A DNA stretch of 64,000 nt from Thermodesulfomicrobium sp. WS (lineage in GTDB: Bacteria; Desulfobacterota; Desulfovibrionia; Desulfovibrionales; Desulfomicrobiaceae). This document shows, one piece after another, positions 1 to 6,100 of the stretch. Under the pieces are notes generated by a model. The model was not told the origin of the DNA. It saw only the letters and a program-made list of their open reading frames with translations, and did no database searches. The position numbers and the translations under genes are program-made. The stretch lies in the NCBI RefSeq assembly GCF_027925145.1, contig NZ_AP027130.1, forward strand, positions 930,001 through 994,000, in the 5' to 3' direction. Each line of letters begins with the position of its first letter. Positions within the stretch are counted from its first letter, which is position 1.

Positions 1-697
1 GGGTTTCTGCGGAGTTGCCACCCATAATCAGGACGCAATCGCTATTTTTGATATCGATGACATGGTTGGTCATAGCGCCGCGTCCAAAGGATTCTGCTAA
101 TGCTGGGACTGTGGAACTATGACAAATACGGGCCTGGTGCTCGATGTAGGTGAGCCCCAGGCTGCGGAGCATGGCTTGGTAGATCCAGCACTCTTCATTG
201 TCCATGGCCGCCGAGCCTACGGAAGCGATGCCTTCGCAGCGGTTGACGGTCTGGCCCTTAGCGTTGGTCTTGGCAAAGGTGGCGTCACGGGTGGCTTTGA
301 CGCGTTTGGCGATCTCCGTGATCATCCAGTCCCAGGACTTGGGTTCCCACCGGTCGCTGCCCGGGGCGCGGTAGAGCGGCTGGGTGACGCGGCGGTCATT
401 TTCCGCCAGTTGGAAGAGGGCTGCGCCTTTGGCACAAAGGCTGCCTTGGTTGATGGGGTGATCGGGGTCACCTTCCACGTTGATGGCACGACCGGTCTTT
501 TCGTCGGTGGATACGATGAGACCACAGCCTGTGCCGCAATAGCAGCAAATGGTGGTGGTTTCTTTGCCTTGGCGTAACTGCATGAGCTGGGCATTGGCCT
601 TGGCTTCCTTGGGGAGGCCAAGTCCGAGTCCGTGGAAGGCCGTGACAGCCGCAGCTGCGGCTGTAAGTTGAATAAATTCACGCCGTTTGAACTGCAT
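1..697 (-). CDS. fdhA: Formate dehydrogenase alpha subunit, Cys version (5' part only)
   Basis: N-terminal part of a periplasmic molybdenum/tungsten formate dehydrogenase catalytic subunit, which oxidises formate to CO2; the rest lies beyond the window's left edge. The start at 697 follows a GAGGAG ribosome site and opens with a twin-arginine signal (KRREFIQL). The [4Fe-4S] motif CCYCGTGC and its fourth Cys (SLCAKG) follow. The active-site position in the context HQARI-x-HS is encoded by TGT at 122-124 (Cys192), whereas the sister gene at 1974-5009 has TGA there. From 124 to 417 the DNA differs from the sister gene at only six sites, but beyond 124 toward the window edge identity drops to about 73%. 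It has its own start region downstream of the fdhB terminator, so it is probably expressed separately. Confidence 0.93.
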   Translation of the reverse strand, partial: MQFKRREFIQLTAAAAAVTAFHGLGLGLPKEAKANAQLMQLRQGKETTTICCYCGTGCGLIVSTDEKTGRAINVEGDPDHPINQGSLCAKGAALFQLAENDRRVTQPLYRAPGSDRWEPKSWDWMITEIAKRVKATRDATFAKTNAKGQTVNRCEGIASVGSAAMDNEECWIYQAMLRSLGLTYIEHQARICHSSTVPALAESFGRGAMTNHVIDIKNSDCVLIMGGNSAET

Positions 698-1152
698 GCG
701 CTCCTCCTCGTCGGGTTGGGGTGAGCCTCCTTTTCGGAGGCATATTTGAGGTATTGCGCCTATGAAGACTTGCGGAAAAAAGCACAAGAAAGGTGAAAAT
801 ATGGAGATTTTATCACCACGAGTATGCCCGTGTGAACAGGGAGATGGTTGGGTGTGTTGTAATGGGCCTGCAGAGAAATTTTAATTAAATTAATATATTA
901 TTTTAAATGGAGGGGCTATTTCATATTGATCTCTTCAGGGAAATTGCAGGAAATTATTGTGGTGTTTTTCTATAGAAACCATGATGAAAAATGATGAAAA
1001 TTTTCCATCAATATAAAAATTAGTAATATTTTATATTTTCATAAACTTATTATTTTATTTCTTGTGTAAATTTGTTGGTAATTGTTGAAATAGATGTCAG
1101 CGCTACTCATTGGAAATGATTATGTATTTTATGGCATAATTTTATGCTTTCC
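698..1152. other. AT-rich intergenic region upstream of the Cys formate dehydrogenase gene
   Basis: No gene is seen in these 455 bases. About 840-1150 is extremely AT-rich compared with the GC-rich genome around it. It contains a direct repeat ATGATGAAAA at 981-1000, a near-palindrome at 992-1010, and a perfect arm pair GCATAA/TTATGC at 1134-1147 beside the fdhB terminator. A GCCTCC/GGAGGC hairpin at 725-741 would sit in the leader of the fdhA mRNA just upstream of its ribosome site. The region most likely holds the promoter and regulator sites of the minus-strand fdhA copy, but no clear -35/-10 pair stands out. Confidence 0.6.
992..1010. promoter_or_regulatory. Near-palindromic candidate operator
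   Basis: TGATGAAAA pairs with TTTTCCATCA as an inverted repeat with one unpaired base, overlapping the second copy of the ATGATGAAAA direct repeat. It lies about 300 bases upstream of the Cys-type fdhA start. A regulator site is a guess from symmetry and position only. Confidence 0.22.
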
Positions 1153-1181
1153 AAAAAGCCGGGGAGCCTTTGGGCTCCCCG
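1153..1181 (-). terminator. Rho-independent terminator after fdhB
   Basis: GGGGAGCC at 1161-1168 pairs with GGCTCCCC at 1173-1180 around a four-base loop. On the minus strand the stem is followed by a short T tract (complement of AAAAA at 1153-1157). It separates the fdhA-fdhB unit from the second fdhA copy. A second GC-rich hairpin (GGGCCGGA/TTCCGGCCC, about 1194-1214) lies between the fdhB stop and this terminator. Confidence 0.8.
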
Positions 1182-1232
1182 CATGCGTTGGTGGGCCGGA
1201 GGGTTTCCGGCCCAGGTTGAGGAGGTGGGTCG

Positions 1233-1961
1233 TTAGGCCAAGGGTCTGCGGAACGGGGTCAGCCGGGCCAGGAGGCTGCGGCGGTCAAGCAGCGGCACAT
1301 CGAGGCTTGCCACGGCGTAGGTATGGATTTTCTTGGGTTCTACCGGGTAGAGGTAGATGACCCGCACACTTTCCGGGTCCCCCAAGGTGGCCTCGGGGTA
1401 TCTTTTTTGGGCCTCGGCCAGGCGTTTTTGGGCCAGGGCGAGCATGTCGTCGTAGTCGCCGAAGTTCATGGTTCCAGTGGGGCACACCTGCACGCAGGCC
1501 GGCTTGAGGCCGTTTTGTACGCGGTCCAGGCACATGGTGCACTTGGCCATGACCTTGGTCTGCGCGTTTTGGCGGGGGATGTTGTAGGGGCAGGCCTCGC
1601 GGATTTCGTTGAAGTCCGGGAGGTCTTTGGTCTTTTCGGTGAAGACCACGGCCCCGGTTTTTTCGTCGTGGTAGATGGCCGCGCTGTCGTAGGCATCGGC
1701 GGTCATCTTGCAGGGCGGCTCGATGCAGTGCCGGCACTGTTCCGGGAAGAAGGCCCAGGTGACGAGCCCCCCTTGAGCGTCAGCGATTTCCTGCATGTGG
1801 ACGAGTTTGTAGGTGATGGCCGAGAGGTCTTTGGGGTTCTGGTGGGAGCCCCAGTTTTTGGTCTCTTCCGCCGGGAGTTTGTTCCATTGCTTGCAGGCCA
1901 CCTGGCATCCGCGGCAGGCCGTGCATTTGGTCAGATCCACAAAGAAGGCTTTTCCGGACAT
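1233..1961 (-). CDS. fdhB: Formate dehydrogenase beta subunit, iron-sulfur electron transfer
   Basis: This 242-residue protein carries ferredoxin-like [4Fe-4S] motifs: CTACRGCQVACK near residue 13, a CRHCIEPPC group near 76, CPYN near 125 and CTMCLDR/CVQVCP near 140-160. It should pass electrons from the catalytic subunit to a periplasmic cytochrome c. It has no signal sequence of its own, as expected for a partner carried across the membrane by the twin-arginine signal of FdhA. The start at 1961 has a GAGAAAGAGCC-type ribosome site and lies 12 bases after the Sec-type fdhA stop, so the two form an operon. No gamma (cytochrome b) subunit follows, which fits the soluble two-subunit FdhAB type of Desulfovibrio. 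Confidence 0.93.
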   Translation of the reverse strand: MSGKAFFVDLTKCTACRGCQVACKQWNKLPAEETKNWGSHQNPKDLSAITYKLVHMQEIADAQGGLVTWAFFPEQCRHCIEPPCKMTADAYDSAAIYHDEKTGAVVFTEKTKDLPDFNEIREACPYNIPRQNAQTKVMAKCTMCLDRVQNGLKPACVQVCPTGTMNFGDYDDMLALAQKRLAEAQKRYPEATLGDPESVRVIYLYPVEPKKIHTYAVASLDVPLLDRRSLLARLTPFRRPLA

Positions 1962-1973
1962 GGCTCTTTCTCC

Positions 1974-4900
1974 TTAGGCTTTGCGCACGTTGACCATGAA
2001 GGCCTTGCTTTCCGGAATGGCCGTGTTGGGATCGCCCACTGCTGCGGTCAGCAGGTTCGCGGCGTCTCCGCCGCCTTTGGGCCATATCCAGCCATAATGC
2101 CAGGGAATGCCCACCTGGTGGATGGTGTTTCCAAGGACCTTAAACGGCTTCATGCGCTTGGTGACGATGGCCACCGCCGTGAGCTGGCCGCGGGGATTTT
2201 CCAAAATGACTTTGTCGCCATTTTGAATGCCTTTGATCTTGGCGAGCTCTTCGCTCATCTCGCAGAACATCTGCGGCTCGGCTTCCAAGAGCCACGGGAC
2301 CCAACGGGAGAGTACTCCGGTCTGCCAGTGCTCCGTGACCCGGTAGGTGGTGCACACAAAGGGATAGCGCGGATCACATACCGCCCGTTTGTGGGCTTCA
2401 CCCGCAAACTCCACGGCCACGGGGCTGTTGAGCCGTTTGGAGAAGGGATGCTCGAGGACCGGGCATTCCAGGGGCTCATAGTGCTCGGGGAACGGGCCGT
2501 CGTTGAGGCCTGGGCCATAGATCGCGGCCACACCGTGCGCCAGCATGATGAAGGGGTGCTTGGCGCCTGGATCACCGCCGCCGTCCACCACGTCGATGGT
2601 CCACTTTTTGCCGGCTTCGTCCCAGGCCAGCACGGGTTTTTGTGGCTGGTAGGGCTTGCCGGCGAGGTCCACGGAAGCGCGGTTGTAGATGATGCGGCGG
2701 TTTACCGGCCAAGACCAGGCCCAGTTGGGGAAGAGCCCGACCTTTTCCTGGGCCGGGGTCTGGGTGGCGTCGCGGCGGGCGGCCATGTTGCCTTTGGCGG
2801 TGTAGGAGCCGCAGTAGATCCAGTTGCCCGAGCAGGTGGAGCCGTCGTCTTTGAGGAAGGCAAAAGAGGCCACCTGGGTGCCGGCCTTGATGGTCTCTTC
2901 CTTGCCGTCCGGGGTCTTCACCACCGTGTCCTTGAGGTAGTAGCCGTTGATGAGCTTGGCCACCTTGTGGGGGTCGAAGGCATGCCCATCGCCCCAATCC
3001 GCCACGTTGAGACCCAAGATGGGCTCAGGCATCACCCCGCCTTCCTTCTGGTAGAGCTCGCGGATCTTCAGGAAGAGCTCATAGATGATGTCGCCGTCGG
3101 GTTTGCTTTGTCCCGCAGGCTTGGGGCCGGCGTAGCGCCACTGCATCCAGCGGCCGGAGTTGGTGATGGAGCCTTCTTTTTCCACGGACACACAGCAGGG
3201 CAGGAAGAACACCTCGGTCTTGACGTCCTTGGGGTTCATGCCCGGGCCCATCCAGAAGGAGCCGGTCTCGTTTTCAAAGATGTTGACGTTGACCATCCAG
3301 TCGAGCTTGGCCAGGGCCTGGCGGGTCTTGTTGGAGTCCGCGCCGCTGGCGGCCGGGTTCATGCCCCAGGCAAAGAAGCCCTTGAATTTCCCCTTGAGCA
3401 TCTGATCGAAGAGGAAGAGCCAGGAGGCGTTCTGTCCCTCGTCGAGCTTGGGCAGCCACTGGTAGGCGGTCTCGAGATCGGCGTCCTTGTACAGGGCCTT
3501 GAGGAGGCTTGCCAGGTACTTGGGCTTGTTCTGCCACCAGTTGACGCTCTTGGGGTCCTTGCTCACCGGGGTGTTGGCCTTGTTGTAATCCGCCAGAGTG
3601 GGCCAATTGGCCCGCGGCGTGGCCATGTATCCGGGAATGATGTGAAAGAGCAGGGCTTGGTCCGTGGAGCCTTGGACGTTGGATTCCCCGCGCAGGGCAT
3701 TGACGCCGCCGCCGGCAACGCCCATATTTCCAAGTAAAATCTGGATGATGGACATTGCGCGGATGTTCTGCACACCAACGGTATGTTGGGTCCATCCCAT
3801 GGCATAGAGGATGGTGCCGGATTTATCCGGTTTTCCTGTAGCCGTGTATGCCTTGTACACGGCAAGGATCTTGTCCTCAGGCGTTCCGGTGACAGATGCT
3901 ACGGTCTTGATGTCGTAGCGGCTGTAATGCTGCTTGAGCAATTGGAAGACACAGCGGGGATCCTTGAGGGTCATGTCCCGCTTGGGCACGCCGTTTTCGT
4001 CCAGCTCAAAGGCCCACTTCGTCTTGTCGTACTTGCGGGTTGCCTCGTCGTAGCCTGAGAACAGACCGTCGTGGAAGCTATAGTCCTTGGAAACGATGAA
4101 CGATGCGTTGGAATAATTGGTGATGTATTCCTTGAAATACAGATCGTTATCGAGAATGTACTTGATCATACCGCCCAGGAAAGCAATATCCGTTCCTGAG
4201 CGCAGTGGGGCGTAGATGTCCGCTTTGGTGGAGGTGCGGGTATAGCGGGGATCCACATGGATGATCGTGGCCCCGTTTTCCTTGGCCTTGAGGACCCACT
4301 TGAAGGAAATGGGATGGTTTTCGGCAGCATTGCTGCCCATGATCAAAATGCAATCACTGTTCTTGAAGTCGATCCAGTGATTGGTCATCGCGCCGCGTCC
4401 GAACGACTCTGCCAGAGCCGCAACTGTGGCGCTGTGTCAAATACGGGCCTGGTGCTCGATGTAGGTGAGCCCCAGGCTGCGGAGCATGGCTTGGTAGATC
4501 CAGCACTCTTCATTGTCCATGGCCGCCGAGCCTACGGAAGCGATGCCTTCGCAGCGGTTGACGGTCTGGCCCTTGGCGTTGGTCTTGGCAAAGGTGGCGT
4601 CGCGGGTGGCTTTGACGCGTTTGGCGATTTCGGTGAGCATCCAGTCCCAGGACTTGGGTTCCCACCGGTCGCTGCCCGGGGCGCGGTAGAGCGGCAGGGT
4701 GACGCGGCGGTCATTTTCCGCCAGTTGGAAGATGGACGCCCCCTTGGCGCACAGCGCGCCCTGGTTGATGGGGTGATCCGGATCGCCTTCGACGTTGATG
4801 GCACGACCGGTCTTTTCGTCGGTGGACACGATGAGTCCGCAGCCCACCGAGCAATAACAGCAGATGGACGTGGTCTCCTTGCCTTTGCGCAGCTGCATGA

Positions 4901-5009
4901 GTTGCGCGCCGGCCTTGGCCTCTTCCAGGCTGATCCCCAGCCCGCCAAAGGCCGTGACAGCCGTGGCTGCGGCGGTCAGTTGGATGAATTCTCTTCGCCG
5001 AAGTTGCAT
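1974..5009 (-). CDS. fdhA: Formate dehydrogenase alpha subunit, selenocysteine protein
   Basis: Periplasmic catalytic subunit of formate dehydrogenase (formate to CO2; bis-molybdopterin guanine dinucleotide Mo or W). The gene is one frame interrupted by an in-frame TGA at 4437-4439, read as selenocysteine 191 in the context HQARI-U-HSATVAAL; with it the product is 1011 residues, normal for the family. The start at 5009 has an excellent AGGAGGG site and opens with a twin-arginine signal (RRREFIQL). The N-terminal [4Fe-4S] motif CCYCSVGC...LCAKG follows, then the molybdopterin oxidoreductase domain and a C-terminal dinucleotide-binding domain. fdhB follows 12 bases downstream. A naive gene caller would split this gene at the TGA. 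Confidence 0.96.
4401..4439 (-). promoter_or_regulatory. Candidate bacterial SECIS element at the fdhA TGA codon
   Basis: Starting at the TGA, the mRNA can fold a short stem (UUGC with GCAG) closing a loop that begins GGCUCU. Place and size resemble the Escherichia coli fdnG/fdhF SECIS hairpins, whose loop contains GGUCU. SelB binding is inferred. The same stretch in the Cys copy (about 86-124) has lost the stem. Confidence 0.5.
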
Positions 5010-5116: not shown

Positions 5117-5974
5117 TTATTGCTCAAAGTTTGGCACAAAGGCGCAGAGGTATTGGGCGAGGATGGGGAAGATATCTTCGTGGCGGTGGTTGTAGCGGAA
5201 TTCTAATTCTTTGATATATAATGGAAAATTGACCGGCGATATGCCGCGCAGGCGTTGGAACCAGGCCTTGGAAAAGGACCAGAACCCTCGGGAAGAGTCG
5301 ATGAAGAGCCCTTTGTCCGCGTGCTTGATGCGGCAGGCGCTCGACAGGGCGCTGCCGCCGGTGAGCAGGGCTGCATAGTGCTTGTAGCGGTCGGTGTAGA
5401 TGATCTTGCCGAGACTGGCAGTTTTGAGGTGGAAATTCATCTTGAAATGGAGGATGCTCTCGGCATCTAATTCAGGGATGAGGTCCACGAACACATGGTC
5501 TCCGCGTTCCACGATGCCGAAGACCGGCATGCGCATCCCGTTTCCCCGGCCTTCTTTGCGGAATTTCCCCGAAGGGCCGAGGTCGAGACCGTGGATGGAG
5601 GAAAAGATGAGGCGGGCGTCCAGGCTGTGGGCCACGATGGCCATGCGCAGGGTGGTGACGGATTTGTAGGCCGTGTTGTAGGACATACCCAATTGTTCGG
5701 CCATGCGGCTGGTGGGCGCTTCCAGCTCGAAGAGTTTGATCAGCCGCAGCCATTGCTGGCAGGAGAGGTTGCCGTTGTTGAGAAAGCGCATGCTGAAGTC
5801 GTGGAAGGTGTAGCCGCAGCGGGAGCAGCGGCGGTATCCTTGACGGATGGCGTAGAGGCGGCGGGTGCGGCACTTGGGGCAAAAACGCTGATGGTTTTTC
5901 CAGCAAAATCCCAACAAAAATTTTCTGGCAGAATTTTCCGTTTTGACAATTTTTTCGTAGAGTTCAAGCTTCAT
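5117..5974 (-). CDS. IS1595/ISXO2-type DDE transposase, solitary
   Basis: The 285-residue product has an N-terminal zinc ribbon (CPKC...CSRC, about residues 20-42) and a helix-turn-helix-like stretch. An ISXO2-type DDE core follows, with candidate acidic residues in IHGLD, IYTDRY and KELEFRYNHR. The start at 5974 (MKLELYEK) is chosen because the longer frame up to 6439 overlaps the divergent lipoprotein gene and reads as non-natural sequence; its ribosome site is weak. I could not find terminal inverted repeats or a target-site duplication in 5010-5116 or 5975-6100. It may be an inactivated insertion or a host-kept transposase gene. It lies between the formate dehydrogenase unit and the sensor operon. 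Confidence 0.75.
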   Translation of the reverse strand: MKLELYEKIVKTENSARKFLLGFCWKNHQRFCPKCRTRRLYAIRQGYRRCSRCGYTFHDFSMRFLNNGNLSCQQWLRLIKLFELEAPTSRMAEQLGMSYNTAYKSVTTLRMAIVAHSLDARLIFSSIHGLDLGPSGKFRKEGRGNGMRMPVFGIVERGDHVFVDLIPELDAESILHFKMNFHLKTASLGKIIYTDRYKHYAALLTGGSALSSACRIKHADKGLFIDSSRGFWSFSKAWFQRLRGISPVNFPLYIKELEFRYNHRHEDIFPILAQYLCAFVPNFEQ

Positions 5975-6100
5975 AACAGGAATTTGCTTAGGAAAAAATT
6001 TGCGTATTATGCATGCGAAGGCCGCGAGGTCCTCCGGACTGTATGGAGGAGCTGGCGATGGCTTATGTCGGATAAAGCATAGAATTGCAATGGGGGCGGC

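Follow-up and report, generated by a model that had tools for sequence, protein, structure and literature searches.

The Cys-type formate dehydrogenase gene of Thermodesulfomicrobium sp. WS is a mosaic, large parts of which have in all likelihood been overwritten by gene conversion, with the Sec-type gene of the neighbouring operon as donor and the Cys-type gene as recipient. One of the tracts concerned ends at the very codon, TGA in one copy and TGT in the other, by which the two enzymes are distinguished. The comparison revealed local identity far above that of the flanks, discordance between the trees of tract and flank, and a donor that is unchanged beside a recipient that is changed, as expected for a non-reciprocal conversion. 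An earlier note on this DNA had described the tract at the codon and had proposed either gene conversion or a recombination join; site counts, a three-state HMM, trees of the separate regions and the direction of transfer now back conversion.

Organization of the two operons

The window, that is, the whole stretch of DNA that was analysed, comprises 64,000 nucleotides (G000:C1:930001-994000) of the complete 2.36-Mb genome (G000). The sequence to its left was added as L003 (L003 coordinate = window position + 10000), and negative coordinates denote bases to the left of window position 1. The features are summarized in Table 1. Two fdhAB operons lie in tandem, head to tail, the Sec type (copy B) upstream and the Cys type (copy A) downstream, with fdhB after fdhA in each of them. 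Both fdhA genes exceed the curated cut-off of TIGR01553 (formate dehydrogenase alpha subunit, 814 bits), and both are complete: copy A (window 697 to about -2339) is open over 1012 codons, and copy B (window 5009 to 1974) has a single in-frame TGA, at codon 191.

Table 1. Features of the tandem fdhAB locus (window positions; negative numbers lie to the left of the window)
Feature	Position	Strand	Basis or remark
fdhA copy A (Cys type), 5' part	1-697, gene continuing to about -2339 (L003 7662-10697)	-	TIGR01553, 1504 bits
fdhA copy B (Sec type, probable conversion donor)	1974-5009	-	TIGR01553, 1529 bits
fdhB of operon B (4Fe-4S subunit)	1233-1961	-	Identical copy in operon A
Catalytic Cys codon TGT of copy A	122-124	-	Sequence
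Sec codon TGA of copy B	4437-4439	-	Sequence
SECIS element of copy B	4384-4442	-	Rfam SECIS_3, 30.6 bits, below the gathering score of 63; E = 0.00088
Probable converted tract in copy A (recipient), ending at the Cys codon	123-417	-	98% identical to B 4438-4732
Donor counterpart of this tract in copy B	4438-4732	-	Sequence comparison
Short, probably converted patch in copy A	477-517	-	1 difference in 41 (HMM)
Unconverted Cys island in copy A, window part	1-122, continuing to about -299	-	27% different from B
Segment of copy B matching the Cys island	4016-4437	-	HMM
Perfect tract, 2,229 bp, 0 differences	B 1160-3388; A -3155 to -927 (L003 6845-9073)	-	Sequence comparison
Intergenic region 5' of copy A, AT-rich, promoter-like matches	698-1159	-	Unrelated to the region upstream of B
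Terminator-like hairpin 3' of fdhB, operon B	1160-1181	-	Perfect tract ends at the hairpin base

The two genes form a Sec/Cys isozyme pair, as indicated by the in-frame UGA and the SECIS element in B, the tRNA-Sec and SelB encoded in the genome, and an intact copy A without a SECIS. In copy A the SECIS search gave no Rfam match and only a weak fold, and the fold is more stable in B. The nucleotides of the element are nearly invariant over 33 Sec genes and have decayed in 25 Cys genes.

A gene at 5120-5974 (minus strand), which encodes an IS1595-type transposase domain and a zinc ribbon, is also found 5' of fdhA in the relatives G001, G002, G006 and G015, and seems to be a resident gene, perhaps a domesticated one, and not a mobile element. 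Together with sensor genes, it precedes copy B as well as the Sec gene in G006 and G015, which belong to another genus of the same family, and copy B therefore occupies the old locus. Between the same flanks there is one operon in the sister genome G001 (Sec type) and one in the congener G002 (Cys type).

The tract ending at the Sec/Cys codon

An exact count reproduced the figures of the earlier note: the 294 sites of 124-417 and 4439-4732 show 6 differences, and the adjoining 1-121 and 4316-4436, which had been estimated to differ at about one site in four, differ at 34 of 121 (28%). Agreement between the copies extends to the middle base, G, of TGT (Cys) or TGA (Sec), so that the tract really reaches 123/4438, and the first mismatch past the tract is the third base of this codon. 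A change-point fit placed the edge at the same third base, with a support interval of -4 to +5 nt, in agreement with the former claim that the tract ends at the codon. In a base-by-base alignment of the full genes the identity was unlike, not similar, on the two sides of the codon. The two codons just before the Cys codon in copy A (CGT ATT) are those of B, and do not occur together in any of the other Cys genes (25 Cys genes compared).

When the codon differences were permuted over the 540 codons that precede the perfect tract, the longest identical run of 45 codons exceeded all permuted values (mean 11.4, maximum 30 in 20,000), and the 6 differing codons among the 97 of the tract were fewer than in any permutation (mean 29, minimum 19). 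Strong constraint on protein and codons, with no exchange at all, might be invoked for a region that encodes conserved FdhA sequence. This explanation has practically no chance of being correct: it is refuted by the permutation test and by the unconverted Sec/Cys pairs of G006 and G015, which are about 72-75% identical in the same stretch, and it is also contradicted by the tree discordance and by the synonymous sites inside the 2,229-bp perfect tract.

Mosaic structure of copy A

Along the full gene, the identity between A and B was 76% (nt 1-280), 98% (281-573), 73% (574-996), 88% in patches (997-1624) and 100% (1625 to the end). The three-state HMM assigned gene nt 178-218, 279-571, 995-1109, 1177-1237, 1293-1334 and 1372-1547 to converted patches and gene nt 1623-3849 to a tract free of differences. 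Its states separate tracts with approximately 2.5% difference from the perfect tract, and at least two rounds of copying are therefore the simplest account. The perfect tract includes the terminator hairpin and the whole of fdhB as well as the 3' half of fdhA; this 2,229-bp repeat, which is larger than the tract first reported, is a very recent conversion. Between the tracts there is a 423-bp island, 27% different from B, with its start at the Sec/Cys codon. The earlier note had missed the other parts of the mosaic because most of gene A lies outside the window, which it leaves at base 1.

A perfect tandem repeat of 2.2 kb is hard to assemble, and a related metagenome-assembled genome (MAG) is gapped at the 29-mer of the SECIS, so an assembler that merged or copied the repeats has to be considered as the source of the pattern. 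We regard such an artefact as highly improbable, as the genome is a single contig, the copies are told apart by the 6 differences of the tract, by unique flanks and by the island, and the tandem order agrees with the synteny of relatives. In the MAG (L019 around 5727-6000) the scaffold gap is bounded on both sides by the same 29 SECIS bases, and conserved SECIS sequence may break metagenome assemblies. A hidden second copy in the sister MAG G001 was also considered and rejected: its N-gap sits on the SECIS 29-mer, which is nearly identical in all Sec fdhA genes, and hence looks like a k-mer break and gives no evidence for a twin.

Direction and relative age of the conversion

Copy B was 92-94% identical to the Sec gene of G001 in all five regions, while the identity of copy A to B swung from 73% to 100%, indicating that B was the donor and A the recipient. 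Within the reported tract, A and B agreed against G001 at 16 sites and A and G001 agreed against B at 1 site, a pattern which places the copying later than most of the split between G000 and G001.

We reconstructed phylogenetic trees of the separate regions. In those of the tract and of the 3' region, copy A grouped with B, G001 and G002 (100/99-100), and a single Cys clade was rejected for both (tract, P = 0.0004; 3' region, P = 0.019). In the tree of the island, the Cys gene of G002 was the partner of copy A (100/99). When the SECIS region was left out, this pair persisted (98/97), a grouping of A, B and G001 was rejected (P = 0.033) and a single clade of the genus was not (P = 0.29). An old Cys clade across families, seen in the island with 99/96, fell to an unsupported 53/62 without the SECIS region, and hence is not claimed. 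The discordance between the trees suggests that the split into Sec and Cys genes within the genus predates the species compared and that most of copy A was replaced later. The locus also serves as a warning: a tree built from entire Sec and Cys FdhA genes blends different histories.

In sequence beyond the island, the 5' part included (96/95), A and G002 cluster with the Sec genes of their own genus, which would also be seen if the events had occurred in the reverse order, with the Sec operon duplicated and a Cys cassette (the codon and about 420 nt or more) then pasted into the second copy from an older Cys gene; the island would in that case have been inserted and would be no remnant. We consider this order unlikely because neither the 5' end (76%) of A nor its promoter region is a recent copy of B, because unconverted patches are scattered downstream of the island too, and because the tracts are younger than the G000/G001 split while the pairing of A with G002 in the island is older. 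A breakpoint common to A and G002 was also rejected, since the break in G002 lies 31-110 nt upstream of the codon.

Other Sec/Cys pairs

Conversion-like tracts were also found among 20 other within-genome Sec/Cys pairs, the clearest and independent cases being G027 and G267, and none of these 20 pairs has a tract edge at the codon. A general rule that conversion tracts end at the Sec codon is therefore not upheld, with 1 of 34 edges at the codon across 21 pairs. These pairs also bear on the possibility that the SECIS hairpin itself stopped the tract, either by a replication stall with template switch or by a block of branch migration at its base. The fold starts shortly after the TGA, and the other long tract ends at a hairpin too, that of the terminator. 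However, homology ends at the terminator anyway, and the tracts of G027 and G267 and the break of G002 end elsewhere than at the SECIS, so that we give this possibility little credit.

The sister genome G001 has tRNA-Sec and SelB. In G002 (L125; 85% complete, Cys gene only) tRNA-Sec and SelB were both absent above the cut-off, and a loss of selenocysteine use is possible in this congener. In other genera, too, a Sec and a Cys fdhA gene were seen side by side in the same orientation (G078, L131; G142, L132); whichever region is considered, the Cys gene of G078 clusters with the Sec gene of that genome, which suggests that it arose from a Sec gene on a separate occasion. A plasmid search returned distant FDHs only, all below 60% identity.

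Residues separating the Sec and Cys classes

Residues 191 and 194 (B numbering) separate the 33 Sec from the 25 Cys genes almost perfectly, and residue 197 does so in part. At position 194, Ala occurs in 32 of 33 Sec proteins and Ser in 24 of 25 Cys proteins, and at position 197 the Sec proteins have Ala and the Cys proteins mostly Pro; copy A retains the Cys-type residue at all three positions. The locus points to residues 194 and 197, beside the catalytic one, as partners of the Sec/Cys choice; a part of the pattern may reflect release from the SECIS constraint. Residues 843, 847, 851 and 867 (B numbering) form a weaker class-associated cluster around C849 and C878; judging by the alignment, these two cysteines seem to correspond to the disulfide that acts as the redox switch in D. 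vulgaris FdhAB. Copy A is of the Sec type at these four positions because the region has been overwritten.

Proposed mechanism and the role of selection

We propose that RecA-type homologous exchange would have copied sequence of the Sec operon into the Cys operon repeatedly, leaving B unaltered, and that the tandem arrangement would have offered the opportunity. The short tracts, among them the one first reported, are the older set (about 2.5% diverged), and the tract of at least 2.2 kb is very recent. The promoter, the 5' end, the scattered patches and the island, which begins at the Cys codon and extends over about 420 nt, would be remnants of the original Cys gene. A UGA carried into A without a complete SECIS would stop translation at codon 191 and yield a truncated protein, and a UGA carried in with the SECIS would make A a second Sec gene. 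Given this cost, lineages that keep a selenium-independent enzyme would be those in which the tracts stopped before the codon. Under selenium shortage the Cys enzyme may act as a backup, a role that has been proposed in other Sec/Cys pairs of FDHs (PMC6288185). The copying itself is demonstrated, with its direction and relative age; we infer the recombination enzymology, the selection on the edge and the selenium-dependent use of the two enzymes.

The earlier note had further suggested that selection keeps the Sec and Cys sides apart. In support of this, the boundary coincides with the class-separating residues 191, 194 and 197, which favours selection for keeping a Cys cassette, although the exact nucleotide may be due to chance; on the other hand, the 20 other pairs lack an edge at the codon and the break in G002 lies upstream of it. 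That selection fixed the edge at the codon is thus plausible, and we would place it about level with coincidence. Conversion may well be real and the edge nonetheless the accidental end of one neutral tract, an explanation to which we give somewhat less than an even chance. The other edges are scattered, and a tract that crosses the codon abolishes the Sec/Cys difference and is invisible in Sec/Cys pairs, so that only edges before the codon can be observed. Against coincidence, the fit lies within -4 to +5 nt of the codon, where the class-defining residues start, and when only the three longer tracts of this pair (six edges) are considered, the chance is roughly estimated at about 3%. In favour of coincidence, an exact edge at the codon was seen once, and the rough chance expectation of one edge within about 7 nt of the codon is 0.17.

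A codon recoded in this way would be expected to act as a natural barrier against conversion: UGA without SECIS breaks the recipient and UGA with SECIS removes the backup enzyme. The present locus is a clean one for this barrier, since donor, recipient, direction and relative age are readable and the congeners show the alternatives (G001 Sec only, G002 Cys only). It seems doubtful that Sec/Cys FDH twins of sulfate reducers evolve in concert outside a protected cassette that begins at the recoded codon, with selection against the import of UGA, whether accompanied by the SECIS or not, repeatedly stopping conversion there.

Comparison with known systems

Sec/Cys FDH pairs and gene conversion between paralogues are both already known, and the present locus is an instructive new case; the open-access literature yielded no report of conversion between an FDH gene of the Sec type and one of the Cys type, which is weak evidence of novelty. 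In Acetobacterium woodii (tandem Cys/Sec fdhF1/fdhF2) and Treponema primitia (paired fdhF), the use of the two genes is presumed to be set by selenium supply (PMC6288185). These pairs resemble the present one in that Sec and Cys FDH paralogues share a gene neighbourhood, but they belong to another, H2-linked FDH family, and conversion within them is unreported in the sources. Sec-to-Cys substitution in FdhA has been mentioned (PMC13188914), and here too a Cys version has arisen beside a Sec version; however, what the Cys gene contains is an island of preserved old sequence and not a point change of the codon. As in paralogue conversion in mammals (PMC2720389) and M. tuberculosis (PMC12046097), the tracts are patchy, the copying is non-reciprocal and the paralogues are more identical than the orthologues, but unlike in those cases the copies differ in the decoding of one codon, a possible functional reason for one edge.

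Among solved structures, both copies are nearest in sequence to the periplasmic FDHs of D. vulgaris and D. gigas (1608-1621 bits, full-length homologues). Sec192 of the W/Sec FdhAB of D. vulgaris Hildenborough (PDB 6SDR, 9QM0) aligns with Sec191 of copy B, and the class-specific residues 194 and 197 align in or beside its mobile catalytic helix, Ile191-Thr196 (PMC11134731). In contrast to D. vulgaris FdhAB and D. gigas FDH (1H0H), which are single Sec enzymes, the enzyme described here is accompanied by a tandem Cys twin that has most of its DNA in common with it.
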